This document shows, piece after piece, positions 5,245 to 24,351 of a stretch of DNA of 64,000 nt. The translations under genes were made by a program, and so were the position numbers. Origin of the DNA: Salinispira pacifica (lineage in GTDB: Bacteria; Spirochaetota; Spirochaetia; DSM-27196; Salinispiraceae); the NCBI RefSeq assembly GCF_000507245.1, contig NC_023035.1, positions 3,329,570-3,393,569 on the forward strand. Direction: 5' to 3'. The notes under the pieces are model-generated. The model saw only the letters and a list, made by a program, of their open reading frames with translations. It was not told where the DNA came from and made no database searches. Each line of letters starts with the position of its first letter. Position 1 is the stretch's first letter.

Positions 5245-5292
5245 TCGTGAGCCGGCTCAGCGGAAGAACCACAAAAACTTGGAGTGCATACC

Positions 5293-6402
5293 ATGAGCAG
5301 GATGAGTCTGAAGATGAAGATAATTACCGCCGTTTCAGGGGCAGTTGCAGCAGCAATCATACTTACCGTTCTGCTTGTGCCTTCCCGGTTTCGCGTCGGG
5401 GCGGCGGGCCTTCCTTCAGAATTTACTTCGGTAATTGAAACGGCCATGGATTCTGTTGTCAGCGGCAATATGAGTCTGGGGGAAAACAGGGCTGACCTCC
5501 ACCTCACCGCCCCGTCCCCGGCAATCATTCCCGCAGCTCCCATGAATGCGCCGGCGGGAGAGCATCTGTTCGCCGCGCTGGATCCCATGGTGTGGATTCA
5601 CAACGAAAATCTGATTCCCCGGCAGCCGGGCGGTCGTGTGCTGGAAGACTATCCCCTTGAAGAAATGGCTGACGCACTGACTCCCTTTGTTTCTTCTGAA
5701 GATCGTTTTTACCCCGTGGCCATCCCCGGAGATTACCCGGAATTGTTTCTCCCCGTTCTGGTGATGCTCAGTGAATCTCTGCAGGGGTTTGTGAATGAGG
5801 AAGTGTTTGATTCCTGGGATGAGCTACTTGCGAACCCCCGAACCTGGCGGGATTCGGGCTACTTTGACCGTGCATACGAGCTGCTTGATGACTGGGCGAA
5901 CCGGGGCATTATTTCCCCCCAGTGGTGGGACATGGATGAACCGGCGTACCGGGACGCAGCCCTGGAAGGCCGGGCGGGGCTGTTCCCCCATTATCTCAGC
6001 TGGAAGCGGCTGGCGCCGGCGGAAGAGCGTTTCTACTGGAAGGTTATCCCCGCCGTCTCCGGCAGGGGCGTACGCACAATCCGGCCGGTTACCCGTGCAG
6101 CAGTCTGGAGCGCCGGCAGCCGCAGTACTGCCTTAATTGAGAGTTCTCCATCCGGTTCTCCATCCGGTTCGGCATCCCCTTCTCCGGCCTCAACCGCCGG
6201 GCTGCTGGAGAAGCTCCCCGAAAAGCACAGAGAAACGGCCTCCAGGCTCATTCGGGCCGTGCAGGGGCGGACTTCCCGGGAGAGGATCGTTACTCATACC
6301 GGCTGGACGCCGGCAATTTCGGGCAGCAGTGTAGTAAATAAAGAGGACCGGGATGCCAGAACCATGCTGGCCTCCGCGGATTTCTGGATTATTGTGCGCT
6401 GA
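5293..6402 (+). CDS. Membrane-anchored protein resembling a solute-binding lobe
   Basis: I chose the ATG at 5293 because a TTGGAG ribosome-binding site lies about 8 bases upstream; a GTG at 5284 in the same frame overlaps that site. The product begins with a single hydrophobic segment (about residues 9-28) that is either an uncleaved anchor or a signal peptide. Residues 90-270 contain short segments (RVLEDYPLEEMADAL, NPRTWRDSGYFDRAYELLDDW) reminiscent of family 1 extracellular solute-binding proteins, but the usual N-terminal lobe is absent. A Ser/Pro/Gly-rich tract (about residues 285-305), encoded by a short DNA repeat, separates the last about 70 residues. It follows the two barrel genes closely and is probably in their operon. 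Function is uncertain. Confidence 0.55.
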   Translation: MSRMSLKMKIITAVSGAVAAAIILTVLLVPSRFRVGAAGLPSEFTSVIETAMDSVVSGNMSLGENRADLHLTAPSPAIIPAAPMNAPAGEHLFAALDPMVWIHNENLIPRQPGGRVLEDYPLEEMADALTPFVSSEDRFYPVAIPGDYPELFLPVLVMLSESLQGFVNEEVFDSWDELLANPRTWRDSGYFDRAYELLDDWANRGIISPQWWDMDEPAYRDAALEGRAGLFPHYLSWKRLAPAEERFYWKVIPAVSGRGVRTIRPVTRAAVWSAGSRSTALIESSPSGSPSGSASPSPASTAGLLEKLPEKHRETASRLIRAVQGRTSRERIVTHTGWTPAISGSSVVNKEDRDARTMLASADFWIIVR

Positions 6403-6639: not shown

Positions 6640-9600
6640 CTACTCTTCATCTTCCAGTATCACCAGATCATAATTCCCGCTTCCGTAGCCGATGGCCACT
6701 TTACCTGCAGTGGATGTGACCCAGGCTCCGCTGGTAGGCCGGGCCACGATACTTGTTCTCTGGCTGTTTACAATGGAATTGGTGGCAACCACTCCGTACT
6801 CCCAGGCTCCAAGGGTACTGTCGTAGTAGGCCATTTTCAGTCCGGAGAAGGTTCCAATACCGTTTCCTGTCAGATATGACACATAGGGAGTGTCCCCGGC
6901 CAGATCCATATCGGCCCATGATCCCACCGCTCCTTCGCTGTCAATAATCTCACTGGTCTGGAATGTGTAGCTTCCGGTACCATCGATGTTCGGTGCATAA
7001 AGGTACAGAAGGTCGCCAGTGGATACACGGTGAGCCACCGCATGAATATTGCCCGATGCATCGAGCTTCATATCCACATAATATCCTGCAGTATCATCGT
7101 TGGTGTCTGCTGCCGGGAATACATCGGTGACAGTCCATTCGCTGCTGTTGGCAGGTTCGGGAGTGTTTCCCCGGGCAATCTGCAGAGTACGCTGGGTGGT
7201 GTTGTAAAAGATGATTACCGGGCGTACATCGGTTGCGTCGGATCCGCCGATGCTGTCCACTGCAATGCTGGACCAAACACCCACATCCTCTCCGCTGCTG
7301 GTGGGAGAAGCGGTTGTGTCCTCCACACCTGCAACCACCGTAGCACCGCTGGTTTCGTTTCCTCCGTTGGTGGCTACGATTTCGTTGGCGCCGTCGGTTA
7401 TGGCATATTTCAGCGTCTTGGAATAGGCATCATAATACGACACATAGTTTCTGCCGTTCACTTCGTCGCGAACAATTCTGGGATTCTGAAACTGATACAG
7501 AGTTTCATCTTCACCGTCGGCATAATTAGGCGTATCGGCATCTCCGTTACCCAAGCGTTCGATATAAGCCACATTTCCATTATTATTCTCAGTCACCAGA
7601 TACCCCCAGGCGTTTCCGCCGTTGTAATAATTCTGGAGATAGGTGATATGTCTGCTTCCGTCGGGGGCCACAAGAATATCGGTCCATTCCGGCGGGTCAT
7701 AGATGGAGAAATAGCTGGTCCGGTTCACTACAGGTCCCATTGCTGCGCTATACATGTCGGAGGTTGCATAGTATGACCATGAGGCCCACAACTGCCATGT
7801 ATTCCGGTCAGCCTCCATGGCGGGATGCACCGGTGAAAGGCTCTGATCAAAGCTGCCTTCATAGTTCCACATCTGCACATAGCGGTCGTCGGTCCAGAGA
7901 GTGGATGCCAGTCCGCTCCCATCGTCTTCCTTTTGCCAGTCCCTGCTGCTTCCATTTCTGTTATTTATGCTCTCAATCCCGTTTACCATTACGCTCAGCC
8001 ATCCGGAATGGGTAAGATTGGATGAGTCGGTTATGCTGATATGCGTGGCCTCCGTATTTGCACTGTAGTTTGCAGCCCCAAGGTCGTCATTGGCAGATCG
8101 GTCGTCATTGTACACACGTACCCAGGATGTTCCGGTTTCGGCCAGGTTGTATCCGGTTATCAGAATTTCCCGTCCTGCCTGAGCTTCGTTTTCCCTGAGG
8201 ATAAACTTTCCGAACCGGCTTCTGAAGGTATTCTCCGCACCGTCGGGTCTGATAATTGAGCTAATGTACGGCACCACATCCACCTGCATGGTCCGATTTA
8301 CGCTGTTTCCGCCGGCATCAAAAATATCAAAGCTCAGAACCACATTATTCTCAGCCACATTGGCTATCCGGGAGCTGTCGAATTCAAAGTCCCAGTTAAA
8401 CACATTGCCCGTATCTTCATTCAGATACTCACTGCCGTCTACGGTAAAACTCCAGTCCGGGCTGGTTCCTGCTCCGCTTCCGAATACGGTGAACGCAGTT
8501 CCGCCGTTGTACCCGGGTATGCTCACATCGATCCGGTCGATAATCTGGTTATCCCATGCCTTACCCTGAATAATAACCCGGCCTGAAATATCCGCATCCG
8601 TGCCGTCATGAAGGCTGTCTGCGGCATATTCCACATGCCCAAGTCGGGTATCACCTGACATGGCGATATTTTCTTCATAGTCAGTCACCGGCTGAAGAGC
8701 TTTTTGTGTATCATCAGCATCTTCATTATAGCCTTGACCGAAGGGAGCAATATCCAAATTCGGAGCTGTATCATCCACGTTATCTATGGTCAGCCCCAGG
8801 GTCACCGCTGCGCTGAGTTCATCCGTAGAGTCCGCATCGTCGCTGGTGGTGCTGTCATACACGGTTATCTCAATCGTCTGATCGTTATCGCTGCTGCTTT
8901 CGGTGAATGCACTGGTATCAATTTCCACCGCCGAGTCTGTAAGCGCACCATTCTGTTCCGTGCCGTTATACACAATAGAGTAGCGCAGCGTACCGTTTCC
9001 TCCGGCGCTGTTCACAGCGATGTAAAGCAAGTCGTTCCGGGCGGTAAAGTTTGAGCTTCCGTATCCGCTGGAGATGGTGGTGCCCTGCTCATCTGCTTCA
9101 ACTGTTCCGCTGGCATCCAGATCGGTACCCAGCACCAGGGAGTTGATGGCAGGCTTGTTGTTGGCAATAAACGCAGCCTGGGCGGCTTCAGAAAAGTTGC
9201 CGGCAAAATCCACCGCTCTGCTGTGGAGGGTTACTGCACCGTCATTCACAGCGGTGGAGTCGAAGAGGGCAGACCACTGATAAGTTCCGGCACTCAGGGC
9301 AAGCCGTTCGTCAAATCCGTCCCCGTCCCCTGAGGGAAGGCCGTCGGATCCGGCGGCTCCGCTTTCCAGCTCGTTGTCTATTACAATCCGGTAATCGTCG
9401 AATGCCGGGTTGTCAAGATCGTAGACGTCGGCCGCCGTGAAGCTGGATGTGGTCCCGCTGCCGTTTTTCAGCTGTATGAGATCGCCGTTCCGGTCGGTAA
9501 GATACAATACTACCCGGTCGATTCCCGCAACGGTTCCCGTATCCCGAACGGTACCCTGCAGTTCCGCAGCCGTACCGATTATTTCCGTACTTCCGGTAAC

Positions 9601-12600
9601 CGCCAGATCTGAGGGGGTAATGTTATCCACACTGAAGCTGATGAGGTTTTGGTTGGTGAAGGGACTGGGGCTTGTGGTATCTTCCGCAGTCACTTTCACA
9701 CTCATGGAGCCTGCTCCGTTGTTATACAGGCCGGCAGCTTCGGTGTTGATTGGAATGCTGATGCGGTAACTTCCCGGGAATGCCCCATCGTAGTCAGGAT
9801 CGCCGGTTCCCAGCAGTTCCACGGTAATTCCTTCCGCCGCCGCTGCAGCTGTCTCAAGACCTGTGGTGTTGGCAGCTCCCGGGGGCAGAAGTCCGCCGGG
9901 ATTGTCGAAGATTACCGTATTATCCAGCAGAGGTCCTTCGTTGGAGAAAATGATCCGGTCAATGTCCGTTTCATCCCGGACCAGTCCGCTGAGCAGATAG
10001 GTTCCGCTCACCGTGTCGCCGCTCACCAGAGTCATTCCTTCAAACTGGGGAAAGTCCTTATTGAAGGTGATGCTGATCTCTTCTTCCGCACCATAAATTC
10101 CGTCGCCGGGAGTCTGTTTGTAATCCTTGGCCCGTACTCGGATACCGATGGTCCGGGTGCTTCCCACACTGGGGTCAAACTCGCTGTTTTCATTCAGATT
10201 GATATTCCAGCTGTCGGTGCCGTTCACCTGGTACCAGTTCACGCCGTCAGATGTTTCATCCAGGGTTCCCTCGCTCCAGCTGTCGTTGGTATAGTCGCCG
10301 TCGTTGTCTGCGTCGATTGCAATCTGCACCTTCTCCACGAACTGACTGTCAAATGCCGAGCCGAATACCCGTACGAAACCTCCCACCGTCGCCCCGTCGT
10401 CGGGAGACAGGATGGTCACTTCCGGCCGGTCCCGTTTGGGGTCGATCTGAAGGGTGTAGCTTGTAAGATAATTTACGTTGCCGTCACCGGAAAGACCTGC
10501 ACTGTCCTCCGCCCTCACGTACACGGTGAAGTCCCAGAGATCGGTCCATGTTTCCCCCGCATCTTCCACGCCGTCGCCGTCAAGGTCGCCGGTGTTCACC
10601 GCAAAAGTGCTGTTGGCATAGTCGTTGATGTTCAGGAAGGAGTAGGACCAGCTGGTTGTTCCGCCGGTATCGATCCAGGTGCTTGCTTCAAGAGTGGATG
10701 CATTGGTGGGGTCGATCTGTTTGCCCAGCCCGATGGATACGTTGTCCACACCGGCTCCTCCGGAGTTATCCGCAGTGGTTCCCCCTATGGTCAGAGGACC
10801 GAATACCGCTGAACCGTCTGCGGGGCTGGTGATGCTGATTGAAGGCGCGGTTTTATCCACAGTGAATGCCCGGGAAGCGATTCTGGTGTTGCCCACCCCG
10901 TCGGTTGCCTGTATGTACACGGTGTGAGCGCCGTCAGCCAGACTTCCCTGGGCTACGCTGAAACTCCAGTTGTCGTAGGGGGTGGAAATCAGGGTCGTTC
11001 CGCTGGAGAGATCGCTGTCGTCAAATTTATATTTCAGAGATACGATTCCCGATTCATCACCGCTGGTTCCGGCAAAATCGAAGCTGTCATTGGACGACCA
11101 GATCGTGCCGTTGGCCGGTCCGCTGACCGCCGCATCCGGCAGTTCGGTATCCAGACTGAAATCGATGCGTCCCGTGTCGGTTCTGGAATAGTCCATGGCC
11201 GAATAATCGCTTCCGTTGTTATCAACCGTATCTACCGAACGGACTCTGATCCCGCGCACGCCGTTTTCCGTATTTGAAAGGGTAATTTCCCAGTCCACGG
11301 TTTCTGCTCCATAGCCTGCACCGGTGAGGGTAACCGTCTCGCTTGTTACACTGTCATCCACCGCGTAGCTGTCGATGATGATCTGGGAGACCCCGTCATC
11401 ATCGCTCACCGTGCCGGAAATAACCGGACTGGTCACACTGGATGATCCGTCAAAGGCGATTCCGTCGATGCTCACCTGGGGTGCGTCGCTGCTTTGATCG
11501 ATGGTGAAGGTCAGGTCGTCCGTGCCTGAGGTGGAATATGCATTTCCCGCCTCATCTTCTGCACGTACTCTCAGGGTCAACTCGTACTGACCGCCGCCCA
11601 GGTCAAGGGCATAATTCAGCAGGGTGGAGTTTCTGGTATCCAGATTACTCAGGGTCCACAGGGTGGTACCGCTCACCGTGCCGGTGGGAAGGGGCATTTC
11701 CGCCCCTGCGTTATTCACATCCACAACCACAACATCCAGGTTCTGCACCCCGTATGCGTCGCTGCTGCTTCCGTTAATGCTGATACTATTGTTCTGATCC
11801 ACACTGCCGAAATCGGTGGTGAACTCTGCAGTTGGAGCGGTGGTATCCACATACACCTGCCGGCTGTCTTCACGGGTATTTCCGCCCAAATCCTGGCTGC
11901 GGAGAATCACCTGATACAAACCGTCACCCGCTGAAGTATCAACAGTATAGTCAAAATCCCTGCTGGCATCCCCGGAGGAACCGGTCAAACTGGTGGAAGT
12001 GAAGGCCTGGATTTCCACATTGTCCCGAAGAATGCGGATGTCCACCGTATCCACCCCATTGCTGTCGTCTGCGGTTCCGCTGACAGTAAAATCGCCGTTC
12101 TGATAACTGAAGTTGGCCGGTGTAAGGCCGCTTAAGGTGGGTGCACCGGTGTCCTGGGTGAAACTTCGGGTAAATACATCCGAGTTCACCGGGGTTGGGT
12201 TGTTGTCTTCCGCCCTGAGCTCGATTGCCTTGGGCCCGTCGGTGGCGCTGCTGAATGAAAAACTGAAGGAGCGGTCGGTTACCGATCCTGTGGTGCTCAC
12301 ATTGGTCCAGCTCCCCCAGGTTCCGCCGCCGTCGCTGGAGAACCGGTACTGAACTGAGTCGGCGTTCACACCCACTCCATCGTCATCGCTCACCGTACCG
12401 CTTACATTGATGGTTTGGCTGCTGATGGTTTCCCCGTCTGTGGGAGCGCTGATGTTCAGAACAGGTTTGTCGCTATCCTGATACACCCGGAGGGTCTGCG
12501 TTGAGCTGGCACTGTTTCCATTGCGGTCTATGGCACGAACGCTCACATCGAGATCGCTTCCGTCCGCAACTGCGCTGCTGTCCACTCCGGTAATGTCGAA

Positions 12601-15600
12601 GGTACTGCCCAGAGTAAGGGCCGTCCAGCTGCCGCCCCCGTCAATTGAGTACTCAAGACTGCTGAGATTTCCCACCCCGCCGTTCTCGGTGATTGATCCG
12701 GAGATATCCATCTCCCCGTTGGCGTATATTCTCCCCGCCTGGGGTAGAGGGTCCCCATCAAAACTGTCAATATAGGGGTCGGGGTTATTGAAACTGATGG
12801 ATGGAGCCACCCGGTCAAGATTCACATCCTTTTCCACCACTGCGGTTTTTCCCGCAGCGTCATAGACGGTAAATCGGTAGGTATAGACGTCGTCGCTGTC
12901 GCCGCCGTCGATGGTTCTGGTATAACTCCAGTCTCCGGTGCCTGAATCGAAGCTGGCGGTTCCCGCTGAACTGTATGTTCCCGCCCCGATTTTCTCTTCC
13001 ACTTCTATGCGGTCCACAGCATTGCTGTCCGCCGCATCTCCAGAAATGCTGAAGCCCGCATTGCGGTACATGGTGCTCAGTCCGCCGTCAATGCTTATGG
13101 TAGGCGCATTCTGATCAATACCGAAATCATGAGTGGTCATGGCGGACTGGTTGCCCGAATTATCCACGGCGATCACAAAAAGACTGCGCTCCCCTTCTCC
13201 GCTTAAGGAAATGGTGGCGTTCCAGCTCGTGGTGCCGCTGGCCGGCTGCCAGCCTGAATCGCTCAAGTCGGTGGTGGGGCTGCTTCCCCGGGCACCAACA
13301 CGGTAGTATACCGAATCGATACCTGCTGCACCGTTATCCGTTGCGCTGCCCTGCACCGCGTAGCTGGACCCGCTGAGCCACTGATCCGCAGCCGGATCGC
13401 TCACTCCGGGAGCATTCGGCGCACTGCTGTCCACAACAATTTCTTTCTGCACCGAATTCTGCCGCCCCACGCTGTCAGTGAGAGTAATTACATACACATA
13501 GGAGCCCTCGCCGGCGGATATGTCTGTGTCTACCGACCAGGTTCGCGAACTGTCACCATCGGCCCCGTTGAGAACCCCGGTTGCGCTGAAAATATCCGCG
13601 GCAGCACCGCCGTCCTTGGACTGGGTGACCGCCACCGAGCTCACCCCGTTGGTGTCGTTGGCCGTACCGCTGATGGTAAAGTCAGCCGCCTTGTAGAGGA
13701 TTACATCGCCCCAGTCGGCCCCGCCGTCTTCTTCCAGATTGGAGACAAAGGGTGCTGACTGATCCACTACGAAAATCTGTTCAACCGCCGGGGCAAGATT
13801 CCCCGCCTTGTCCCGTGCCCGGACCCAGGCGCTATGAGATCCTTCAGCCAGGCCGGTGTCTGCGCCGGCTCCGTCAATATCAAGATCCACGGAAAAATTC
13901 CAGGACGAAGGCGATCCGGAAACCGCCGACCAGCTGCCGTCTGTTCCGTCTGTGCTGTCCAGGGAGTATTCCACGCCGCCGGACCCCAGTGACGCCAGGC
14001 CGCTGCCGCTGTCGCCGGCGCTTCCCAGAAGGCTTACCACATTCCCGGAGACATAATCTCCCGGATCATCGAAGCTCAAGGATTCGGGTGCGGTTTCATC
14101 GATCACCACCGTCCGGGTGAGCTCTGTTGTCCGGCCGGCCACATCTTCTGCGGTGAGGGTGTAGACCCATTCACCGTCGTCTGTGCCGTCTCCCGGAAGA
14201 GTTACCGGATGGCTGAACGCTCCGGAGCCTGCTGTGGTGAAAATCACTCCCTGATCCGCACCATCTTTTTCGGCACGTATTTCAAGGGATCCAAAGGCGT
14301 TGGTATCGCTTGCCGAACCGCTGAGGGTGAAATCCGTGTTGGTTTCCCCCGGGGCTCCGCTTTCGCTGAGAACCGGATCAGCTGTGTCATAGAAGAAATC
14401 TACTTCTGCAAGACTCGGATCGTTCAAGCCGTCACTTGCCCGCACCCACAGGGTTTTGGCTCCCTGTCCCCCTGAAGAGAAATCCACGTCGGCCACAGTC
14501 CAGTTCAGGCCGCCCAGGGAAATGGGAGTCCATGTTCCGTCGGACCCGTCACTGCTGTCCAGGGAATATTCCAGGCTGTCCACACCTGCACCGCCGTTAT
14601 CGGTAATCTGACCGCGGATATCGTAATCGGTTATTTCAACATATTCACCATTCACCGGATTGGTAACCACCAGTTCGGGACTGAGGGTATCGATGGTGAA
14701 CTGGCGGGTTTCGCTGTTGGTTTTTGTCGGTCCTGTTGTGAAGTCATCGGCCTGCACTTCCATGCTGTAGTCGCCGTCGTCGCTGTTAGCTGCCCGGTCC
14801 ACCGGCATTTCATAGCGCCAGGTAACCACATCGTCACCGTAGCTTCCGCTGACGATTTCAAGGTTTCCGGTTCCCGCCGGAATTTCCACGCTGTCAATAT
14901 AGAGTCGCACCTCTTCTATGCCGTTGGGGTCCGAGGCGGTACCGGTGATTACCAGCTCGTAGTTTCCGTCGGAATCTCCGTCGCTGCCGTTGCTCACCGC
15001 AGCCGGAACCGGAGAAGTAATAATAATGCTGGGAGGACCGAAATCCAGAGTGAAGGGGATCCATGCGCTGCTTTGCCCGACTGTTCCATTAATATCTTCT
15101 GAACGCACCTGAAAGCTGTGAACGCCCTGGGGAAGATTTTCAAGAGAATGGGCCCAGGTTACTTCTCCGCCGTCAACATCAGGCTGATTGCTCACATTGA
15201 CCCAGTCTTCGCTTTCATTGGTATCCAGAATATCCCCGTCGGAGGTAATATCTTCACCGTCCAGGGGCGCGCCGTCATTATACACATCAATACGGATCTG
15301 TACGGTGTCCGCATCCACCGCATCGTCATCGTTCACCTTTCCAAAAATGCTGGCTCCGTTGCCTAATATGTTGTCTGCAGCGGTTCCGCCGGATTGGATA
15401 TTGGAATAGCTGATCACCGGAATGTCGGAGCTTTGATCCACCCGTATGTGGCGAACCGATGAGGATGAATCGCTTACGTTGCCTGCTGCATCAACGACAA
15501 AAAATCGGAGAGTGTAATCCCCGTCCCCGTCAGGAAAGAGGGCCGGATCAGTGGTGTCTATACCGGTGCGGGTCCAGTTGGCAAGTCCCGAAGGTGTTAA

Positions 15601-17322
15601 CCAGCTTCCGTCAAAACTTGCCGGCGCCGGCTGTGCGGCCTGAATGCCGCTCTCGATTTTTCCGTATACCGCCTTCAGAGGATTCAGTCCGTCGTCGGCA
15701 ATCCCGCTGATGCTGATAATTCCGTTCACCGCGTCGCTTGGCTGGGAATACTCGTTGGGATAGGTAAGGCTCATGGTGGGCTGTACGGTATCTCCCACAA
15801 AGCTGTAGGTGCTCTGCCCCCAGCCTCCGTCCACACCGGCGCGAATCTTGAATGACTGGGATCCGTTTCCAAGGGTAAAATCTGTTCCGGCGGTAATGCT
15901 GGTTTCATAAGTTCCGTTCACAGCATTTCCTGATGTCAGATAAGCAGATGCCGGATCAAGTTCTATTGCATCGCTCCAGTCGTCATCTCCCGGGGTTACA
16001 TCAATTTCTATCCGTCCTGAGTTCAGATTGGTAATATCAAACTGGAAATCCAGGGTTTCGCCGGTTCCCACATACTTTCCCTGCTGAGGTGACTGAATCA
16101 CCAGACCGGGAACTCCCTCGGGCACACTGAAACGTACCGGCTGACTTGTAGCCTCTAAACCGTTTATGTCCGTTGCCCGGAGCTGAATATAGTAATCGTT
16201 GCCGCTGGGCAGATCCGATTCATAGCTCCAGTTGCTGCCCTCAAGGGTTAACGGAGAATCCTCCACGAGCCCGCCGGCATCATCGTAATTCACGTAACTT
16301 GTATATTCAAAGATCTTCACTTCCGCAGAGGCCACAGGTCCGTCGTCGTCCTCCACAAATCCGTTAAAACGCTGGGGGGAGGCGAAGGGATTGCTGCCGG
16401 TCTCCGACGGACTGTAAAACCCGAATTGGGGCATGTCCGAGTCGGGGTTCACATTGAGCATCAGATGATCCGCCGGATCGGCGTCATGCCGCAGACTTGC
16501 CAGGCTAACATTCAAGGTTCCAGGGAGAGTTTCTCCCCCGTACTCATAGGCGTTAATGTCTTCAATATTGGGCAGATCGCTTACATCGTCGGCATTGGTT
16601 CTGATATCCGCAAAATGATAAAACCAGGGATTGAAGTTTCCCGAGTTATCATATGCCCGGACTATCAGGTAATACTCGCCGTTCAGACCGCCGTCCAGAG
16701 AGGATGCATCGAAGCTGTAGTACCAGCTGGAGGTTCCGGTGGCCTTCACATCGGTGAAAACGGCGGAATCATCCGAACGGTCATAGAGGGAGAGGAGGAC
16801 CTCTTTGACCCGGGTGGTATCCGCAGCTTCTCCCTTTATGGTGACCACATTGTTGAACTCTGCATCGTTTCCATACAAATCCGGGGTGGTGACCAGCACC
16901 GTGGGAGGATTGTTGTCCACGGTGAGAAGGAGGTTAATGCTTGCATTCTTTCCTGAAGCATCTGTAACATTGAGCTGATAATCCACGTCCCCGTCGTTCA
17001 GGGAGCTGCTGTCGATTTTCACCGACCAGGTCTCGCCGTCAAGAGCTGCATTGAATGTATCGGTGCCGTCGCTGACGGTCACCGAATCAACCCGGAAGTC
17101 GTCTTCAACGGTTCCCGAAAGGGTGAAACTTCCCCCCACGTAATCGCCGTTGCTGTGACTCTCCACGCTGATCTTGGGAGGATCAATATCCACCTCATCG
17201 CCCAGGCCGGGCTTTAAAAGATCACAGGTGCTCAGGCCGAGCACCGCCGCCGCGATAACGGCAACGTCAAATATCCGTCGAATCCTTTGCAGGGTGTGTG
17301 AACGCTTCGTATTTCCTCTCAT
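6640..17322 (-). CDS. Giant lipoprotein with about 24 Ig-like repeats and a propeller-like C-terminus
   Basis: About 3,560 residues. I prefer the ATG at 17322 over one at 17385: it has an upstream GAGAGGA site, and it places a normal basic n-region and hydrophobic core before the lipobox LGLSTC, so the mature protein is probably lipidated. From about residue 40 to 2,900 there are about 24 units of about 100-130 residues. Each opens with a D-x-x-x-P motif and a G-T/S-x-x-D core (SGTVSDDDGV, SGTADDSNGV), as in bacterial Ig-like/cadherin-like domains, and many Asp/Asn positions could bind calcium. The last about 450 residues switch to repeated segments (VAPDGSRHITYLQN, VRDEVNGRNYVSYYD) like a beta-propeller. 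It follows the barrel-anchored Ig protein in the same transcription unit. A surface adhesin, spacer or matrix component is inferred; the ligand is unknown. Confidence 0.85.
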   Translation of the reverse strand: MRGNTKRSHTLQRIRRIFDVAVIAAAVLGLSTCDLLKPGLGDEVDIDPPKISVESHSNGDYVGGSFTLSGTVEDDFRVDSVTVSDGTDTFNAALDGETWSVKIDSSSLNDGDVDYQLNVTDASGKNASINLLLTVDNNPPTVLVTTPDLYGNDAEFNNVVTIKGEAADTTRVKEVLLSLYDRSDDSAVFTDVKATGTSSWYYSFDASSLDGGLNGEYYLIVRAYDNSGNFNPWFYHFADIRTNADDVSDLPNIEDINAYEYGGETLPGTLNVSLASLRHDADPADHLMLNVNPDSDMPQFGFYSPSETGSNPFASPQRFNGFVEDDDGPVASAEVKIFEYTSYVNYDDAGGLVEDSPLTLEGSNWSYESDLPSGNDYYIQLRATDINGLEATSQPVRFSVPEGVPGLVIQSPQQGKYVGTGETLDFQFDITNLNSGRIEIDVTPGDDDWSDAIELDPASAYLTSGNAVNGTYETSITAGTDFTLGNGSQSFKIRAGVDGGWGQSTYSFVGDTVQPTMSLTYPNEYSQPSDAVNGIISISGIADDGLNPLKAVYGKIESGIQAAQPAPASFDGSWLTPSGLANWTRTGIDTTDPALFPDGDGDYTLRFFVVDAAGNVSDSSSSVRHIRVDQSSDIPVISYSNIQSGGTAADNILGNGASIFGKVNDDDAVDADTVQIRIDVYNDGAPLDGEDITSDGDILDTNESEDWVNVSNQPDVDGGEVTWAHSLENLPQGVHSFQVRSEDINGTVGQSSAWIPFTLDFGPPSIIITSPVPAAVSNGSDGDSDGNYELVITGTASDPNGIEEVRLYIDSVEIPAGTGNLEIVSGSYGDDVVTWRYEMPVDRAANSDDGDYSMEVQADDFTTGPTKTNSETRQFTIDTLSPELVVTNPVNGEYVEITDYDIRGQITDNGGAGVDSLEYSLDSSDGSDGTWTPISLGGLNWTVADVDFSSGGQGAKTLWVRASDGLNDPSLAEVDFFYDTADPVLSESGAPGETNTDFTLSGSASDTNAFGSLEIRAEKDGADQGVIFTTAGSGAFSHPVTLPGDGTDDGEWVYTLTAEDVAGRTTELTRTVVIDETAPESLSFDDPGDYVSGNVVSLLGSAGDSGSGLASLGSGGVEYSLDSTDGTDGSWSAVSGSPSSWNFSVDLDIDGAGADTGLAEGSHSAWVRARDKAGNLAPAVEQIFVVDQSAPFVSNLEEDGGADWGDVILYKAADFTISGTANDTNGVSSVAVTQSKDGGAAADIFSATGVLNGADGDSSRTWSVDTDISAGEGSYVYVITLTDSVGRQNSVQKEIVVDSSAPNAPGVSDPAADQWLSGSSYAVQGSATDNGAAGIDSVYYRVGARGSSPTTDLSDSGWQPASGTTSWNATISLSGEGERSLFVIAVDNSGNQSAMTTHDFGIDQNAPTISIDGGLSTMYRNAGFSISGDAADSNAVDRIEVEEKIGAGTYSSAGTASFDSGTGDWSYTRTIDGGDSDDVYTYRFTVYDAAGKTAVVEKDVNLDRVAPSISFNNPDPYIDSFDGDPLPQAGRIYANGEMDISGSITENGGVGNLSSLEYSIDGGGSWTALTLGSTFDITGVDSSAVADGSDLDVSVRAIDRNGNSASSTQTLRVYQDSDKPVLNISAPTDGETISSQTINVSGTVSDDDGVGVNADSVQYRFSSDGGGTWGSWTNVSTTGSVTDRSFSFSFSSATDGPKAIELRAEDNNPTPVNSDVFTRSFTQDTGAPTLSGLTPANFSYQNGDFTVSGTADDSNGVDTVDIRILRDNVEIQAFTSTSLTGSSGDASRDFDYTVDTSAGDGLYQVILRSQDLGGNTREDSRQVYVDTTAPTAEFTTDFGSVDQNNSISINGSSSDAYGVQNLDVVVVDVNNAGAEMPLPTGTVSGTTLWTLSNLDTRNSTLLNYALDLGGGQYELTLRVRAEDEAGNAYSTSGTDDLTFTIDQSSDAPQVSIDGIAFDGSSSVTSPVISGTVSDDDGVSQIIIDSYAVDDSVTSETVTLTGAGYGAETVDWEITLSNTENGVRGIRVRSVDTVDNNGSDYSAMDYSRTDTGRIDFSLDTELPDAAVSGPANGTIWSSNDSFDFAGTSGDESGIVSLKYKFDDSDLSSGTTLISTPYDNWSFSVAQGSLADGAHTVYIQATDGVGNTRIASRAFTVDKTAPSISITSPADGSAVFGPLTIGGTTADNSGGAGVDNVSIGLGKQIDPTNASTLEASTWIDTGGTTSWSYSFLNINDYANSTFAVNTGDLDGDGVEDAGETWTDLWDFTVYVRAEDSAGLSGDGNVNYLTSYTLQIDPKRDRPEVTILSPDDGATVGGFVRVFGSAFDSQFVEKVQIAIDADNDGDYTNDSWSEGTLDETSDGVNWYQVNGTDSWNINLNENSEFDPSVGSTRTIGIRVRAKDYKQTPGDGIYGAEEEISITFNKDFPQFEGMTLVSGDTVSGTYLLSGLVRDETDIDRIIFSNEGPLLDNTVIFDNPGGLLPPGAANTTGLETAAAAAEGITVELLGTGDPDYDGAFPGSYRISIPINTEAAGLYNNGAGSMSVKVTAEDTTSPSPFTNQNLISFSVDNITPSDLAVTGSTEIIGTAAELQGTVRDTGTVAGIDRVVLYLTDRNGDLIQLKNGSGTTSSFTAADVYDLDNPAFDDYRIVIDNELESGAAGSDGLPSGDGDGFDERLALSAGTYQWSALFDSTAVNDGAVTLHSRAVDFAGNFSEAAQAAFIANNKPAINSLVLGTDLDASGTVEADEQGTTISSGYGSSNFTARNDLLYIAVNSAGGNGTLRYSIVYNGTEQNGALTDSAVEIDTSAFTESSSDNDQTIEITVYDSTTSDDADSTDELSAAVTLGLTIDNVDDTAPNLDIAPFGQGYNEDADDTQKALQPVTDYEENIAMSGDTRLGHVEYAADSLHDGTDADISGRVIIQGKAWDNQIIDRIDVSIPGYNGGTAFTVFGSGAGTSPDWSFTVDGSEYLNEDTGNVFNWDFEFDSSRIANVAENNVVLSFDIFDAGGNSVNRTMQVDVVPYISSIIRPDGAENTFRSRFGKFILRENEAQAGREILITGYNLAETGTSWVRVYNDDRSANDDLGAANYSANTEATHISITDSSNLTHSGWLSVMVNGIESINNRNGSSRDWQKEDDGSGLASTLWTDDRYVQMWNYEGSFDQSLSPVHPAMEADRNTWQLWASWSYYATSDMYSAAMGPVVNRTSYFSIYDPPEWTDILVAPDGSRHITYLQNYYNGGNAWGYLVTENNNGNVAYIERLGNGDADTPNYADGEDETLYQFQNPRIVRDEVNGRNYVSYYDAYSKTLKYAITDGANEIVATNGGNETSGATVVAGVEDTTASPTSSGEDVGVWSSIAVDSIGGSDATDVRPVIIFYNTTQRTLQIARGNTPEPANSSEWTVTDVFPAADTNDDTAGYYVDMKLDASGNIHAVAHRVSTGDLLYLYAPNIDGTGSYTFQTSEIIDSEGAVGSWADMDLAGDTPYVSYLTGNGIGTFSGLKMAYYDSTLGAWEYGVVATNSIVNSQRTSIVARPTSGAWVTSTAGKVAIGYGSGNYDLVILEDEE

Positions 17323-17415
17323 ATTTTTCAATCCTCTCTTTACTGCCGCGGGAAAAATCTTTCCCATTTCCATGGAAAGGTTCATCCCTGTTTTCCAGGC
17401 CGGTTTAGCCAGCGC

Positions 17416-20400
17416 CTAGAACAGATTTATCCGCATTCCGAAGGCCAGGCGGTATTTAATTCCTCCCTGGATATCGGATGAAATAAACCAGAACTGGTTT
17501 TCCACATACGCCGCATAGGCGTTCATTGCATTCCATTTTTCAATTTCAACTTTCAGAAGTTCAAGCTGGACGATTACCGCCCCCAGCACCAGACCGTCGG
17601 CTTCCGTGCTTCCCTGGGACGTTGAAGAATCCATGGTGAAATACTGGAAAGCCGATCCCACCGCAAGGCTGCTGGAGAGAAATTCCCAGTCCGGTCCGAA
17701 CAGAAATCCGTAGGGCAGACTGGCCACGTTGGCAAGAAGCTTCAGCCCCAGCACGTTACCGTTGAACCTGCCCTCCGGGGCCTGCCCCCCCAGCACCTGG
17801 AGCTTTACGTTGTTGTCGAAGAAGGTAAGTCCCAGCCCCGCTTCCCAGTAGGTGGCACCCAGAACATGAAGATCCACATACAGCCCCTGAATGAACTGGG
17901 GCACTTCATAGCTGTTCTTGCTCCTGGGGCGGAGGGTGAGCTGCACATCTTTCAGCCCGTTTGCATCCCAGGCGGTTCCGCTTACCTCCAGCTCTTCGTT
18001 CAGTGCGATATTTTCCTCGGGGGTAATGATGCTCACACTGGGAAGGGTGTCATCCACCCGGGTGAAGATCCGGCTCACTGCAGTCTCCCCGGATGCAAAT
18101 CGGGAGCGAACCATGACGCTCAACGGGCCGTCATTCAGATCCTGGGTTTCCAGCCGGAACTTCCATTCCTCCCGTGGCCGCATGGAGGTGAAACTGCTTC
18201 CGTTATCCAGTGAGTATTCAAGACTCACCAGCTCATACTGCTTTTCCAGCTCCCGCTGTTCCTTCCGGCTCATCTCATCTGCTTCCGATGCACCGTCCGG
18301 TCCGGACTCCCGGAAATACCCGGTGCGCCCGCTGATCCAGGGGCGCTGACTGGCAAAATCGCCGGTCCCCATGGAATCGATGCTCACCCAGGGACCTTCC
18401 GCCCGGTAGTCGATTCTGCTCCGGGGGATGAGACCTCCGTTTTCACTGTCAGCGGATGAGGCGGTATCCGGCAGAATTCTGAACAGATGAGATCCGTCGG
18501 CGATTTCACCGGGTTCAAAGCTCCGGCTGAAATAGCCGTTGTCGTCGGTTTTCAGTACATCAAAAGATGATCCGTCCATGGTGAGAACCACCTGGGACGG
18601 GATTTCTCCGTCCACCGCGTATGCCCGGCCTTCCAGGGTGAAGTGACCTGAAACCCTGCTTCCGTCAAAAGGATGCAGCAGGGCAAGCCGCCCCTCATTC
18701 TCGGGAATCACTCTGATAATATCCCGGGAAACCATGCTCTCATTCTCCGCATCATCCCGGGCGAAAATGCTCAGGTTGTACAATCCGGGCTCAAGGCCGG
18801 AAATATCAATCTGTTCCAGAACAACCCGCCGGGGTTCAAAATATCCCCCGAGCATGGTCTCACCGCCGACCTGTTGTTCCTGTGCGTTCCCGTCATCATC
18901 TGCAGCTGCCGCTGTGTCCGTTGTTGCGTCAGGCAGCAGCCGGGTAATCTGATACCGGATATCTGCAACCGTCAGCTCGTCGCTTACCCGAAGCTGAACC
19001 GGCAGACTGTACTCAACCTCACTGCCCTCCCGGGGAAGGGAAAGTTCCATTGCCGGAGGAGTGTTATCCAGGGTGATAATGCTTGAAGAAACCGATTCCA
19101 CGCCGTAGCCGTCAACCGCCTTTATGAGCATGAGATAGCTTCGATCCACCAGAATGCTGCTGTCCAGATCATAACTCCAGGTTTCCCCGCCCCGGGTCTG
19201 CTGGAAGCTGTTGCCCCCGTCCAGGGAAATCCAGACGCTCTCTATGCCGTTGGCATCCGATGCGCTTCCTTCAAGGGTCACAGTCCCGCCGTTGGTGCTG
19301 CCCAGCTCAGGTGAAAGCAGCTGCGCCCGGGGTTTTTCCCGGCTCACCCGGAATGGCGTTGAAAGCACATCGCTTTCCACACCGTATATATCCACTGCGA
19401 TAACATCCAGAACATGTTCGTTATCTTCCAGCTCTTCGAAGGGGATACGAATCTCAAAACTGTTGGCCCCCTCCACCGTGTCCGCCCGACGGTATTCTCC
19501 GTCATCCAGCCGGTAGCGGATAGAATCTACACCATCGTCGTCAATCACCGTACCGCTGAACAATGCGTCGGACTCAAACAGGGCATCTTCTTCGGGAAAT
19601 TCCATGCTGATCTTCGGCTTGTCCGAGGCGGGGTCAAAGTTCAGATCCACGTCCCGCCTCCGGGTATTTCCTGCGCTGTCACTCAGCTCAAGATATACTT
19701 GCCGGGGAAATTCGGCGTAGGGAGACAGATCAAGAAGATGCTCCAGCACGCCGTGTTCGCTCTGTTTCTCTTCAAATTTCAGTTCAATCTCATCGGCGGC
19801 TTCTTCTGAGGTTTCTTCTGCGGCGTCTTCGGGGGCCTCATCGCCTGCCTCGGCACCGTCGCTTTCACCGTTACCTGCAGCAGGCACGGCCAGGGCGAAC
19901 CGCCCGCCCGGCTCATGGCTGAACTGATCCCACACCAGGAAAAAGAGGGAATTACGACCGTTCACCACCTCATCACCCGGAAGAATCTGCTCAATTTCCG
20001 GGCCTTCAGTATCCAGCGTAAGAAGTCTGCGCACCGTGGTGAAATTGCCGGAGGCATCCTCAGCCCGTACCGTCAGTTCAAGGGGACCCTGATCGGCGCC
20101 GGCCTTTATCAGCTCTTCAGCACCAATTGCGAAGGAGAACGCACCTCTCCGCCCGGCATTCCGGTCTGCGGCTGCCGGATCATTTTCCCCGGTGGATGCA
20201 CCATTATCCGGAGAACCCGATGGAAAGACCGCCGAATCCTGTGTGAGGACCCGGAAATTATTGCCGTTCAGGCTGTAGCTGAGCACCGGCAGACCGCCGG
20301 TATTCTGGCTGGTTTTTCGGCCGCTACTTGCGCTGGCGTCATTTTCTTCGGCGGCAATACCAAAGGCGTCATTATCCGCAGCAGTTCCGGATATCCGAAG

Positions 20401-23400
20401 CACGTTGAGGTTTTCCCCTTCAACAGGGGTATTCAGGATGAGTTCCGGAGCAAGGGTATCGAAGCTTACCCCGTCTATTGTTCTGTCAAAAACCTGGCCG
20501 TCAACGGTTTCCAGTTCCAGCTTCAGCTCTTCCCAGCGGAGAACCTCTGCTGGAGTGAGGCGGACGATCCATGAACTTCCCGCCTGATCCACCCCGGCCG
20601 CGGGAAGACCCGCAGGCCTTGCAGTATCGGCCCCGTCGACATTCACGCTACCATCCCCTGAAGCGGATGCAGTTGCCGTTCTCGCGGCTTCCGGAGGTCG
20701 GCCGTTAAACAGATAGATGTAGCTGCCCGGCTTCTCTTCAACAGGATACCAGCCTTCCCGGTCGTCAATAATCCGGTTCTCCGTCGATTCCCTGAGGTGG
20801 AAATCCAGAAAACCGGTGACTTCTCGACCGAACTCATCGCTTATCCGCAGGCTGATGCCATGCCGCCCCGCCCTGAGACTGCGGTCCCGGTTTTCCAGGG
20901 GAACGGCAAAAGCGTACCCGCCGGCATCCCGGGAGCTGAGGTTCAGCTCTATCTCTTCACCGCCGTCCAGTACGTATACGGCCTCTTCAATTTTTCCGTC
21001 ATAGTCGAATGTTCCCGTTATTGCCGCCGGCTCTTCGCCGGAAAAGCGGGGGATTTCTTCCAGCTGCCTGTCAGCGAACACCAGCGTGCCGGTTTCCGGG
21101 GCGATGGTGAAGCTCACGCTTGCGGAAACGCTTCGCTCTCTGCCCTCATCATCCCCTTCACGAAATTCAATATAGGGCAGTTCGGCTTTCAGCTGATGCT
21201 GCCCTGCACCGGGAAAGGGAAACTCTGTGAATGCTTCAGGTCCGCCGGATATGCTTCGGGGTTCGCCGCCGTTCAGGGAGATGAGAATATTCCCGGCATA
21301 CTCAAATCTGCCGTTCCCGCTTCCCTTGGACACAACCCCCACCGGCAGAGCCTGGCTATCGCCGTGGAGATCACGGGGAAGGAGCCCTGCGTCAGATGAG
21401 AAAAAGGGAATAACCAGCCGCATGTTCATACCGGCTTCTTCCGGAGCCGCCCCGCCGGATACCAAAAGGGACCGGGACGCAATCCGCCCTGCGGCATCTT
21501 CGGCATAGACGGTGATCATGCTTCCGGGGTATACGATTTCGGAATCGGGGACGCTGATCTCAAAGCTGCCGTCGCCGTCCAGGGCAACCGCTGTGCCCCC
21601 GTTCTCTTGGTTTGTTTGGCCATTTGTTTGGCCGGCTGCATCGGCAGATACATACCACAGACGCCGGATTTCCGTATCGTCCTCTGCGGTTCCTCTCACC
21701 ACGCCGGAGGATGCGGCAGTATCTTCAAGGCTGATATCAGGAGCATCCAGGTCCGATATGATCACCGGCAGATCCCGGGTGTACTGTGTACCCCGGTCGG
21801 TAGTAATGCGTACTGCGGCTCCCCGGAGAATCCCTGAGGTCCGGGCAGAGATGCTCAGCCTGTTTCCCCGGCTCCTGAGGCGGAAATCCGAAGCTGCGGC
21901 GGCATTGTCATCTCCGGCTTCGTCGTTTTCCGGATTGTCGTTTCCACCGGGGAGAGTTAATTCTGCCGACTCCACGTCCTGTCCGAAAAATACAAGGTCA
22001 AATACTTCCCCGGCCCCAAGAACCACCGCCTCGCCGGTAGGGACGGCTGCTCCGGAAGCCATTTCGGTCGCTTCTATGGGAAGCTGGAGCCGGGGTTCGC
22101 CGGTATACACGCTGAGGTTTTCAATCCACAGGGGAAAAATATTTTCAGACACAGAACCAAGCTCATCTATGGCCCGGATCTTCACCGGCACATATCCATA
22201 GGGAAGGGACGTATCTGTCGAATCGGCAAGAGGAAGAGTGAACTTCCACTGTGTTCCCGGGCTGTCATTTCTGCTCTCTGTGGGCCCGCTCTCTGTCGAA
22301 TCTCTTTCGGGCCCGCTCGCTGTCGATTCACTTTCAACGGCTTCCAGCTTCAGCTCCAGGTCATCCCGGCCGGGAATGCTGGCCACGATTCGGCCTTTTC
22401 CGCTGTGAAAGTTCACATATCCTTCAAGCCCTGCATACTCATCGCTTCGGAATCCGATTCCCGGTTCATAGGCCAGTTCGCCCGCCGGCTGCCGGCTGCC
22501 GGGCTCCCCGGCGTCGGAACTCCGGACACCGGTATTTCCGCCATTCTCTGCTGCACGGGGCAGCACTTTCGCCATTTCAACCCGGGGATTCCGGGGTTTC
22601 AACAGAAAATCACGGCTCAGCTCTTCGCCTTGAAGCCCGTAGATATCTTCCGCCCGGATACGAAGCTCATGCTCTCCCGGCGGAAGATCTGAAATATCAA
22701 TGGTAAAGCTCCGGGGCGTGTCGATTCGCACTTCTTCTCCCCGGTTCAGACTGTAGATAACCGCACCGGGAGCATCGTCGTCCAGCACCCAGCCGCTGAT
22801 CTGCTCACCCAGGCGGTAGGAGGGCAGTTCGTCTTCCCCCGTTTGATCCGGCTCTTCTCCCGGAGATTGTGTTTCACCCAGGGCTCCGGCAAAGCTGATG
22901 CGGGGGCGGTCGGCCTGAACGTTCAGCTCTTTGCGATAGCGGATATTGGTGCTGTTACCGGCGGGATCGGTGAGGACGAACTCCAGATCCAGTTCATCGG
23001 CTCCGCTGAGCTCCACCGGCGCCTGCCAGTAGGGGTTGCCGGGCTCCATCGCGATTTCCGTCGCTTCTTCTCCGCGGTAGGCCCAGCTGAGACTCTCAAT
23101 GCCGTTATCGTCCCGGGCGCGGCCCAGTACGCTGAAATTGCCATCGGCCTGGAGATCTTCAGTGGGATACACAATCTCCAGTTCGGGGGGAGTGTTGTCA
23201 ACAAACAGAAGGAGTGATGCCCTGGACCTGGAACCCTGACTGTCTTCTGCGCGGAACACCAGAACCCGGGGCCCGTCTTCCATTTCCCGGGTATCCACAT
23301 CCAGTGCGAAACTGCGCTCACCGGCGCCGTCCCTGCCTTTCAGCCGGATCTCATCCCACTGGTCGCCGCTTCGGATATGCATGGCCGCTACGCCGTTAGA

Positions 23401-24108
23401 ATCGCTCAACGTGCCGCTGACCTTCAGCCGGCCGCTCACCAGTCTGCCGTTCTCATGACTCTCGATGGTTATTTCAGGGATATTTCTGTCCAGAATAAAG
23501 GAAACCGCAGTTTCCGGACCGGTGAGACCGTTCACATCCACCGCCCTGCTCACAATGGTGTAGGGTCCGTCTTCCAGATCGGATACATCAATTGACGCTG
23601 ACCAGAATTCCTTCCCTTCGGCTCCATTGAAGCCTGATGCATCCGCGTCCCGGGGATCGTCTCCGGGGATCAGCTGATATTCCACGGAAGAAACCGCATC
23701 ATCATCCACCGCAGAACCAAGCGCGGAAAAATTCCCGGCCACCCGTTCGTTCAATGCGGGAAAGGTGACAGAAGAGCGGGGAAGATCAGATTCGGGATCC
23801 ACCCTGATATCCACAGGAGGGGCTTCAAGAATATTACCCGCCTCGTCCTCTGCTGTCACAAGCAGATTGTAGCGGCCGGGATCAAGCCCGCTCAAATCCA
23901 ACTGTTTGCGCCACTGCAGCAGGCCGTCCACCTGCCGGGGGACATTCAACAGCTCCTGCTCTTCTCCGGCTGAACCACCCTCTGAACCCACTGGATCCGC
24001 GGGAGTTGGAGAATCGCCGGGTGCCCCGGCTTCTTCCTGTGCGTGCACAGGCCATGTCAGCAAAACGAGAAAAATACACGATGTCAGAACGGTCTTGAAT
24101 GCCTTCAC
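17416..24108 (-). CDS. Giant Ig-like repeat protein with a C-terminal outer-membrane barrel
   Basis: About 2,230 residues. The GTG at 24108 is preferred because a GGGGTG ribosome-binding site lies 6 bases upstream and the protein then starts with a clean signal peptide (cleavage near PVHAQ-E). An upstream ATG at 24210 would add a non-signal leader. After an acidic linker come many Ig-like units similar to those of the downstream lipoprotein. The last about 160 residues differ: they contain about eight amphipathic beta segments and end in MRINLF, the terminal Phe expected of an outer-membrane barrel. The layout is therefore signal peptide, long Ig stalk, C-terminal barrel. Whether the stalk faces the periplasm or the outside cannot be read directly. 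It ends about 90 bp before the lipoprotein start, so the two should be co-expressed. Confidence 0.8.
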   Translation of the reverse strand: MKAFKTVLTSCIFLVLLTWPVHAQEEAGAPGDSPTPADPVGSEGGSAGEEQELLNVPRQVDGLLQWRKQLDLSGLDPGRYNLLVTAEDEAGNILEAPPVDIRVDPESDLPRSSVTFPALNERVAGNFSALGSAVDDDAVSSVEYQLIPGDDPRDADASGFNGAEGKEFWSASIDVSDLEDGPYTIVSRAVDVNGLTGPETAVSFILDRNIPEITIESHENGRLVSGRLKVSGTLSDSNGVAAMHIRSGDQWDEIRLKGRDGAGERSFALDVDTREMEDGPRVLVFRAEDSQGSRSRASLLLFVDNTPPELEIVYPTEDLQADGNFSVLGRARDDNGIESLSWAYRGEEATEIAMEPGNPYWQAPVELSGADELDLEFVLTDPAGNSTNIRYRKELNVQADRPRISFAGALGETQSPGEEPDQTGEDELPSYRLGEQISGWVLDDDAPGAVIYSLNRGEEVRIDTPRSFTIDISDLPPGEHELRIRAEDIYGLQGEELSRDFLLKPRNPRVEMAKVLPRAAENGGNTGVRSSDAGEPGSRQPAGELAYEPGIGFRSDEYAGLEGYVNFHSGKGRIVASIPGRDDLELKLEAVESESTASGPERDSTESGPTESRNDSPGTQWKFTLPLADSTDTSLPYGYVPVKIRAIDELGSVSENIFPLWIENLSVYTGEPRLQLPIEATEMASGAAVPTGEAVVLGAGEVFDLVFFGQDVESAELTLPGGNDNPENDEAGDDNAAAASDFRLRSRGNRLSISARTSGILRGAAVRITTDRGTQYTRDLPVIISDLDAPDISLEDTAASSGVVRGTAEDDTEIRRLWYVSADAAGQTNGQTNQENGGTAVALDGDGSFEISVPDSEIVYPGSMITVYAEDAAGRIASRSLLVSGGAAPEEAGMNMRLVIPFFSSDAGLLPRDLHGDSQALPVGVVSKGSGNGRFEYAGNILISLNGGEPRSISGGPEAFTEFPFPGAGQHQLKAELPYIEFREGDDEGRERSVSASVSFTIAPETGTLVFADRQLEEIPRFSGEEPAAITGTFDYDGKIEEAVYVLDGGEEIELNLSSRDAGGYAFAVPLENRDRSLRAGRHGISLRISDEFGREVTGFLDFHLRESTENRIIDDREGWYPVEEKPGSYIYLFNGRPPEAARTATASASGDGSVNVDGADTARPAGLPAAGVDQAGSSWIVRLTPAEVLRWEELKLELETVDGQVFDRTIDGVSFDTLAPELILNTPVEGENLNVLRISGTAADNDAFGIAAEENDASASSGRKTSQNTGGLPVLSYSLNGNNFRVLTQDSAVFPSGSPDNGASTGENDPAAADRNAGRRGAFSFAIGAEELIKAGADQGPLELTVRAEDASGNFTTVRRLLTLDTEGPEIEQILPGDEVVNGRNSLFFLVWDQFSHEPGGRFALAVPAAGNGESDGAEAGDEAPEDAAEETSEEAADEIELKFEEKQSEHGVLEHLLDLSPYAEFPRQVYLELSDSAGNTRRRDVDLNFDPASDKPKISMEFPEEDALFESDALFSGTVIDDDGVDSIRYRLDDGEYRRADTVEGANSFEIRIPFEELEDNEHVLDVIAVDIYGVESDVLSTPFRVSREKPRAQLLSPELGSTNGGTVTLEGSASDANGIESVWISLDGGNSFQQTRGGETWSYDLDSSILVDRSYLMLIKAVDGYGVESVSSSIITLDNTPPAMELSLPREGSEVEYSLPVQLRVSDELTVADIRYQITRLLPDATTDTAAAADDDGNAQEQQVGGETMLGGYFEPRRVVLEQIDISGLEPGLYNLSIFARDDAENESMVSRDIIRVIPENEGRLALLHPFDGSRVSGHFTLEGRAYAVDGEIPSQVVLTMDGSSFDVLKTDDNGYFSRSFEPGEIADGSHLFRILPDTASSADSENGGLIPRSRIDYRAEGPWVSIDSMGTGDFASQRPWISGRTGYFRESGPDGASEADEMSRKEQRELEKQYELVSLEYSLDNGSSFTSMRPREEWKFRLETQDLNDGPLSVMVRSRFASGETAVSRIFTRVDDTLPSVSIITPEENIALNEELEVSGTAWDANGLKDVQLTLRPRSKNSYEVPQFIQGLYVDLHVLGATYWEAGLGLTFFDNNVKLQVLGGQAPEGRFNGNVLGLKLLANVASLPYGFLFGPDWEFLSSSLAVGSAFQYFTMDSSTSQGSTEADGLVLGAVIVQLELLKVEIEKWNAMNAYAAYVENQFWFISSDIQGGIKYRLAFGMRINLF

Positions 24109-24351
24109 TTCAATCACCCCACAATCAGCCTTACGAGAATCAACAAACAGATGTACTTTTTTACAATGATGCAGTTTTACATAGATGCAGAATCCGGAGC
24201 AGTTTTCCACAACACCGCTTTTTATCCGGATATCCCCGATTATTATTATCGGGTTATAATATAGCTCTGTATAGTAAGAACCCCTCTAGGATAATGGCTT
24301 CTTTGGAGATATTGGTTTACAAATTTTCATTGATGTATGCTGATTGAATTG

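Follow-up and report, generated by a model that had tools for sequence, protein, structure and literature searches.

How are two giant proteins made of immunoglobulin-like (Ig-like) repeats, encoded side by side in the salt-mat spirochaete Salinispira pacifica, held in the cell envelope, and do they belong to one apparatus? The question is raised by a 64,000-nucleotide stretch of contig NC_023035.1 (positions 3,329,570 to 3,393,569), referred to below as the window, in which two adjacent minus-strand genes, here called P1 and P2, encode proteins of 2,230 and 3,560 amino acids (Table 1). A first-pass annotation, made from the DNA letters alone, had described a co-transcribed pair, P1 ending in an outer-membrane barrel and P2 lipidated, and had proposed that the two form a single surface apparatus. 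Both frames proved open over their whole extent, and each gene occurs once in the S. pacifica genome. Computation of folds, conservation, co-occurrence and gene linkage upheld most of the parts and moved one of them: P1 and P2 very probably work together, judging from gene content, and the Ig chain of P1 is probably periplasmic.

Joint occurrence and linkage of P1 and P2

The phylum-wide survey covered 197 Spirochaetota genomes at least 90% complete, in which P2 was detected by a profile of its C-terminus. P1 proved to be a single conserved spirochaete protein family; its barrel was present in 43 of these genomes, and all 43 also gave a P2 match (E≤5.3e-16). No convincing P2 was found among the 154 genomes without the barrel, which gave either nothing or weak matches to propeller blades (the best, 2.4e-16, in a 696-codon frame); this zero may be somewhat overstated, as the profile was made from P2 genes adjoining P1. 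A Treponema-type family of 115 genomes showed the same concordance (E≤1e-15), with 82 genomes having both genes, 27 neither, four P1 only and two P2 only (Fisher p=8e-20, uncorrected for phylogeny). Genomes without both sit inside genera whose other members have both; for example, the pair is missing from a treponeme genome of 1.1 Mb, as large as that of T. pallidum, whose genus-mates (2.7-3.4 Mb) have the barrel. It is also absent from a Borreliaceae-looking family of genomes of about 1-1.8 Mb. Fragmented genomes of the same order matched imperfectly, for example two (G008, G018) having the barrel on a short broken contig without P2 and one (G019) having P2 without the barrel. A link to the flagellum was rejected as the explanation, flagellin occurring in 188 of the 197 genomes and the pair in 43.

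The two genes are often neighbours as well, as a search for the same pair in other spirochaetes revealed. They lie within 2.5 kb of each other in 26 of the 43 genomes, P2 being downstream of P1 in 19, upstream in four and convergent in three. A scan of a genome collection with the barrel gave 169 confirmed stretches, and the 80 loci retained, to which the locus counts refer, are all annotated as spirochaete. Among the barrel genes with informative flanks, 30 of 58 had P2 within 2.5 kb (16 downstream, 14 upstream) by profiles and the N-terminal motif, a procedure that missed at least two more (L087, L105); adjacency counts from single-sequence phmmer searches missed many divergent P2 genes that are visible by eye. 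P1 and P2 are unlinked in some genomes (G209, G158). Other recurrent neighbours of P1 or P2 were only clade-specific or ordinary housekeeping genes. The association thus outlasts changes of gene order, an indication that function, and not descent alone, maintains it.

What is constant in the pair is indicated by the exceptions. Three genomes (G012, G014, G042) encode a bare secreted barrel of about 190-200 residues, clearly homologous to that of P1, a few bases upstream of a giant Ig lipoprotein, and in a fourth (G011) an Ig lipoprotein starts beside a similar bare barrel. Because bare barrels are still paired with a giant lipoprotein, the constant core is, on this sequence comparison, the barrel plus the lipoprotein, and the P1 Ig chain is dispensable. 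Many genomes combine one barrel with several P2 frames, such as five (up to 6,178 codons) in G214 and four in G210. One P1 serving several P2 proteins suggests a shared partner or anchor, and P2 lengths of up to about 6,200 codons suggest a protein poorly suited to spanning the periplasm.

At the Salinispira locus itself, P1 and P2 lie on the same strand with a gap of 93 bp, and a Shine-Dalgarno-like GAGAGG precedes P2. Scanning for terminators gave no site within the gap and one strong hairpin past P2. The short gap, its freedom from terminators and the hairpin together make the co-transcription proposed at first likely.

The two proteins and the probable membrane topology of P1

Related Ig-like repeats are common to both proteins, as had been proposed. 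Pfam Big_7 matched P1 (E=8e-43) and P2 (E=8e-31), Big_13 domains were found in both, and an iterated profile recognised 16-17 units in P1 and about 23 in P2. The architecture as a whole lies far outside what chance would give, to judge from its conservation at full length across dozens of genomes. The NCBIfam model of OmpL47 (NF047441, cutoff 250 bits) scored below its cutoff with both P2 (23.7 bits) and P1 (18.5 bits), and the OmpL47-type repeat NF047446 (cutoff 40 bits) scored 48.0 bits with P2, above its cutoff, and 28.9 with P1. The name of the latter model, ‘OmpL47-type beta-barrel domain’, may mislead, for the stretch of P2 that it matched (residues ~1324-1401, window ~13120-13353, minus strand) is by Pfam and the repeat profile an Ig-like repeat.

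The start of P1 was placed at the GTG at 24108, backed by the signal peptide MKAFKTVLTSCIFLVLLTWPVHA, followed by QEE; an in-frame GTG at 24210 is an alternative start. Homologues span 1,040-2,392 amino acids, and an alignment of 61 full-length ones revealed conservation of the first ~400 and the last ~750 residues, with a middle of variable length. Conserved ends around a variable middle suggest a connector touching conserved partners at both ends, unlike the tip of an adhesin. No SLH domain and no OmpA-C peptidoglycan-binding domain was found in P1 by a Pfam scan. P1 genes are tandemly duplicated at five loci (L076, L080, L092, L100, L111) and single in most genomes.

The C-terminus of P1 (AFGMRINLF and stop) had been taken for about eight barrel strands with a terminal Phe. 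AlphaFold2, applied to the last 330 residues with 47 homologues, closed an antiparallel eight-stranded barrel at residues ~2073-2228, with a predicted local distance difference test score (pLDDT) mostly above 90; the linker right before it is the sole stretch below 50. The best match in the PDB was OprF (4rlc; Foldseek E=6.5e-5; VIA Z=14.6 over 129 residues at 2.9 Å), followed in the VIA comparison by NspA (Z=14.1), OmpA (1bxw, Z=13.2) and PagL. The barrel is strongly conserved among 19 aligned sequences, its last residue being F, or L or W in some homologues, and searches with the last 206 residues of P1 matched 26 of the 61 related genomes, the frames being mostly 800-2,200 codons long. NCBIfam had nothing matching the barrel domain, PDB sequences searched with a profile yielded only one insignificant match (E=0.69), and the Pfam Autotransporter match was marginal (26.1 bits, the cutoff being 26; E=9e-6; two of the 19 barrel-family members). 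An OmpA-type eight-stranded barrel is well supported by modelling. The defining features of three other classes were missing: the model has eight strands where a type Va autotransporter has twelve, the barrel is C-terminal where an intimin- or invasin-type inverse autotransporter has it ahead of the Ig repeats, and the Pfam scan gave no match to the OmpA-C domain of OmpA proper.

In an antiparallel barrel, an even strand count brings both ends to the same side, and the C-terminal beta-signal end of outer-membrane proteins faces the periplasm. Since P1 has eight strands and its terminal Phe would be periplasmic, the Ig chain ahead of the barrel should be periplasmic too. From the barrel topology this chain is therefore probably not the surface stalk that the first-pass annotation had made of it. 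Its C-terminal anchoring, also noted there as opposite to the order of intimin, was borne out, and the order is not unusual, being that of classical autotransporters and of OmpM/SlpA.

For P2, a lipobox and a propeller-like end had been noted, and both were found again. The N-terminus reads LGLSTC-DLLKPGLGDEVD, with a T at position -1 of the Cys that is unusual for a lipobox, and a Cys after a hydrophobic stretch is common to the P2 homologues beside P1; P2 is accordingly predicted to be a lipoprotein. The last 551 residues, modelled by AlphaFold2 and aligned with 12 homologues, gave a predicted template modelling score of 0.81 and a mean pLDDT of 74, the propeller beginning at about residue 140 of the fragment and covering ~410 residues. 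Ahead of it lies a conserved VVPYI...GYNL domain, modelled with lower confidence. The VIA comparison gave Z scores of 27-30 to CylK and propeller lectins (286-328 residues aligned, about 10% identity). The propeller fold is clear in the model, and the likeness to propeller lectins and glycosidases is at fold level only. In single-query comparisons with the S. pacifica proteins, P2 propeller ends shared 24-38% identity and P1 barrels 44-52%. P2 heads thus appear to diverge faster than the P1 barrel, which fits P2 as most likely the displayed part.

A proposed display partner for P2 and the competing readings

The preferred reading, held with moderate confidence, is that P1 and P2 make up the core of an apparatus in the spirochaete envelope, in which P1 partners a displayed P2. 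P1 would be held in the outer membrane by its OmpA-type barrel, and its Ig chain would extend into the periplasm as an arm, conserved at either end and variable in length between them. P2 would be an N-terminally lipidated Ig chain with the propeller at its far end, most likely a surface-displayed fibre for binding or cell-cell contact, while P1 would most likely serve in the outer membrane as its shared partner, assembling, orienting or anchoring it; docking could plausibly take place at the conserved GLG-x2-VD motif right after the lipidated Cys. At the inner membrane, the chain may be completed by a membrane-anchored solute-binding-like protein whose gene often lies nearby. The full three-part version, a trans-envelope display system in which this protein contacts the periplasmic arm of P1 and P1 holds one or more P2 at the surface through their GLG-x2-VD N-termini, would be new to biology and is considered unlikely. 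A known system with a similar arrangement is OmpA-RcsF, in which the periplasmic part of an eight-stranded barrel protein binds an outer-membrane lipoprotein (PMC7553776); that system is a stress sensor of small proteins without Ig repeats, and no homology is implied.

Several points weigh against this reading. The surface location of P2 and its complex with P1 are reached by inference, and the fast divergence of P2 can mean weak constraint rather than exposure. The propeller was only weakly detected in the genomes with bare barrels. Four of the 115 genomes have P1 without P2 at the threshold used, one of them (G302) being a single contig, and P2-like proteins of other lineages could have been missed by a profile built beside P1. 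The single surface apparatus of the first-pass annotation gains from the co-occurrence and adjacency of the genes and probably loses the P1 chain as a surface element. Neither outcome named there as a refutation came about, since the modelled barrel closes and homologous genes are frequently adjacent.

A possible, though somewhat unlikely, alternative places both chains in the periplasm, with P1 as an OmpM/SlpA-like tether whose Ig spacer replaces the coiled coil, and P2 in the inner leaflet cross-linking or filling the periplasm around the flagella or the wall. The OmpA-type topology, which puts the P1 chain on that side, and the inner-membrane-anchored neighbour, which fits an envelope-spanning set, are compatible with it, and the plan of P1 (conserved N-end, long variable spacer, C-terminal barrel) is that of SlpA/OmpM (PMC9388160, PMC10628300). 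P1 differs from these tethers in its Ig spacer, in having no SLH or OmpA-C wall-binding domain detected by Pfam, in eight strands against the 30-stranded trimeric barrel of SlpA, in its linkage to a giant lipoprotein and in being confined to a minority of spirochaetes. Moreover, the pair is missing from the majority of flagellated spirochaetes, P2 is found paired even with bare barrels that have no spacer, and the longest P2 frames tell against a periplasmic filler. A layer built by both Ig chains is also conceivable, as with HPI of Deinococcus (PMC10120038), a lipoprotein whose lipobox Cys is followed by an Ig-like array as in P2; HPI assembles into a lattice and is not described as having a propeller, whereas P2 ends in a propeller and is partnered by a barrel.

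That the P1 chain is instead a surface stalk on its barrel, so that an autotransporter-like adhesin would stand next to another adhesin that is lipidated, is improbable and is the reading least consistent with an eight-stranded barrel. An N-terminal passenger with a C-terminal barrel is the type V order, and the marginal Autotransporter match points the same way. However, monomeric and inverse autotransporters pass their long passengers through barrels of twelve strands, no linker helix was modelled before the P1 barrel, OmpA-like folds rank first, and conservation within P1 is among the highest in the N-terminal Ig domains, which on this reading would be the exposed end. The eight-stranded barrel of OmpA is too narrow to hold or pass a polypeptide (PMC7553776), and one of that size in P1 would be no better suited. 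Very unlikely is the view that the two genes do separate jobs and sit side by side only through a shared origin or joint transfer of two Ig-repeat genes. It draws on the related repeats and on the unlinked pairs in G209 and G158, but does not explain why the two occur or are missing together, both in the phylum at large and inside one family, with three gene orders, or why the bare barrel keeps the association without any Ig repeats.

All of the folds are known; what would be new is their combination, an OmpA-type barrel that bears an Ig arm and is obligately paired with giant lipoproteins ending in a propeller, and a literature search found no description of such a barrel-lipoprotein pair. 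The barrel resembles the N-terminal barrel of OmpA/OprF in fold, strand number and a C-terminal beta-signal-like end, and differs in standing at the C-terminus, after a chain of ~2,000 Ig-like residues, with no OmpA-C found and about 10-15% identity. LigA and LigB of Leptospira are likewise spirochaete lipoproteins with Ig-like repeats, of the Big_2 type and far fewer in number, whereas those of P2 are Big_7 and Big_13. Free-living and host-associated spirochaetes alike commonly carry the pair, and most sampled genomes of the Treponema family have it. How spirochaete lipoproteins reach the cell surface is an open question, on which P1 would bear if it is a dedicated partner for display. A periplasmic Ig-domain arm on a barrel of OmpA size would likewise be a novel design for an outer-membrane connector.

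Feature coordinates and neighbouring genes

A candidate third component lies convergent with P2 (Table 1). Many loci carry, between or beside P1 and P2, a protein of 340-440 amino acids with an N-terminal membrane anchor and no lipobox, which in some matches SBP_bac_1 or SBP_bac_8 (L056, 1.9e-15; L047, 5.6e-14; L054, 1.5e-12; L117, 2.9e-9). Solute-binding-like profiles detected such genes at 14 of the 80 loci and near P1 or P2 in five further genomes (G004, G006, G015, G024, G052). The Salinispira candidate scored best among the 135 open reading frames of the window; it has no Pfam match of its own, and hhalign with one branch of the solute-binding-like family gave nothing, only the profile of the other branch matching.

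Table 1. Features of the P1-P2 locus (window positions) and solute-binding-like genes at other loci (positions within each locus)
Feature	Position	Strand	Basis
P1, secreted Ig-repeat protein with C-terminal outer-membrane barrel	17416-24108	-	Open frame, 2,230 aa; homologues mostly full-length
P1 signal peptide, residues 1-23 (VHA/QEE), without lipobox	24040-24108	-	Sequence; N-termini of homologues also secretory
P1 conserved N-terminal Ig region, residues ~44-505	22594-23979	-	Kept across homologues; middle differs in length
P1 eight-stranded barrel, residues ~2072-2230, INLF end	17419-17895	-	AlphaFold2, Foldseek, VIA
P2, giant Ig-repeat protein, predicted lipoprotein, with C-terminal propeller	6640-17322	-	Open frame, 3,560 aa; homologues
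P2 predicted lipoprotein signal, residues 1-33 (LGLSTC)	17224-17322	-	Sequence; lipobox-like Cys in homologues
P2 post-Cys motif C-x(2-8)-GLG-x2-VD, residues 33-45	17188-17226	-	Seen in P2 homologues adjoining P1
P2 Ig-like array, about 23 recognised units	8275-17172	-	Pfam and iterated profile
P2 beta-propeller, residues ~3149-3560	6643-7878	-	AlphaFold2, VIA, alignment
Terminator-like strong hairpin past P2	6524-6553	-	Terminator scan
Divergent solute-binding-like candidate, 372 aa, N-terminal membrane anchor	5284-6402	+	Profile E=1e-4; convergent with P2
Solute-binding-like gene beside P1/P2, L033	3182-4186	-	
Solute-binding-like gene beside P1/P2, L054	3355-4638	-	
Solute-binding-like gene beside P1/P2, L056	2843-4018	-	
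Solute-binding-like gene beside P1/P2, L070	3387-4457	+	
Solute-binding-like gene beside P1/P2, L117	4211-5359	-	

Divergent from P1 stands a chemotaxis receptor-like gene (24536-26386, plus strand), which is not a recurrent neighbour elsewhere. At the other end of the locus, all on the plus strand, a tandem pair of very similar secreted proteins of 251 amino acids (26-781 and 977-1732) gave no convincing Pfam match. Two overlapping genes for secreted proteins of 544 and 601 amino acids (1808-3442 and 3439-5244) come directly before the solute-binding-like candidate, and the 544-residue product showed a weak match to Wzi, a capsule assembly barrel.

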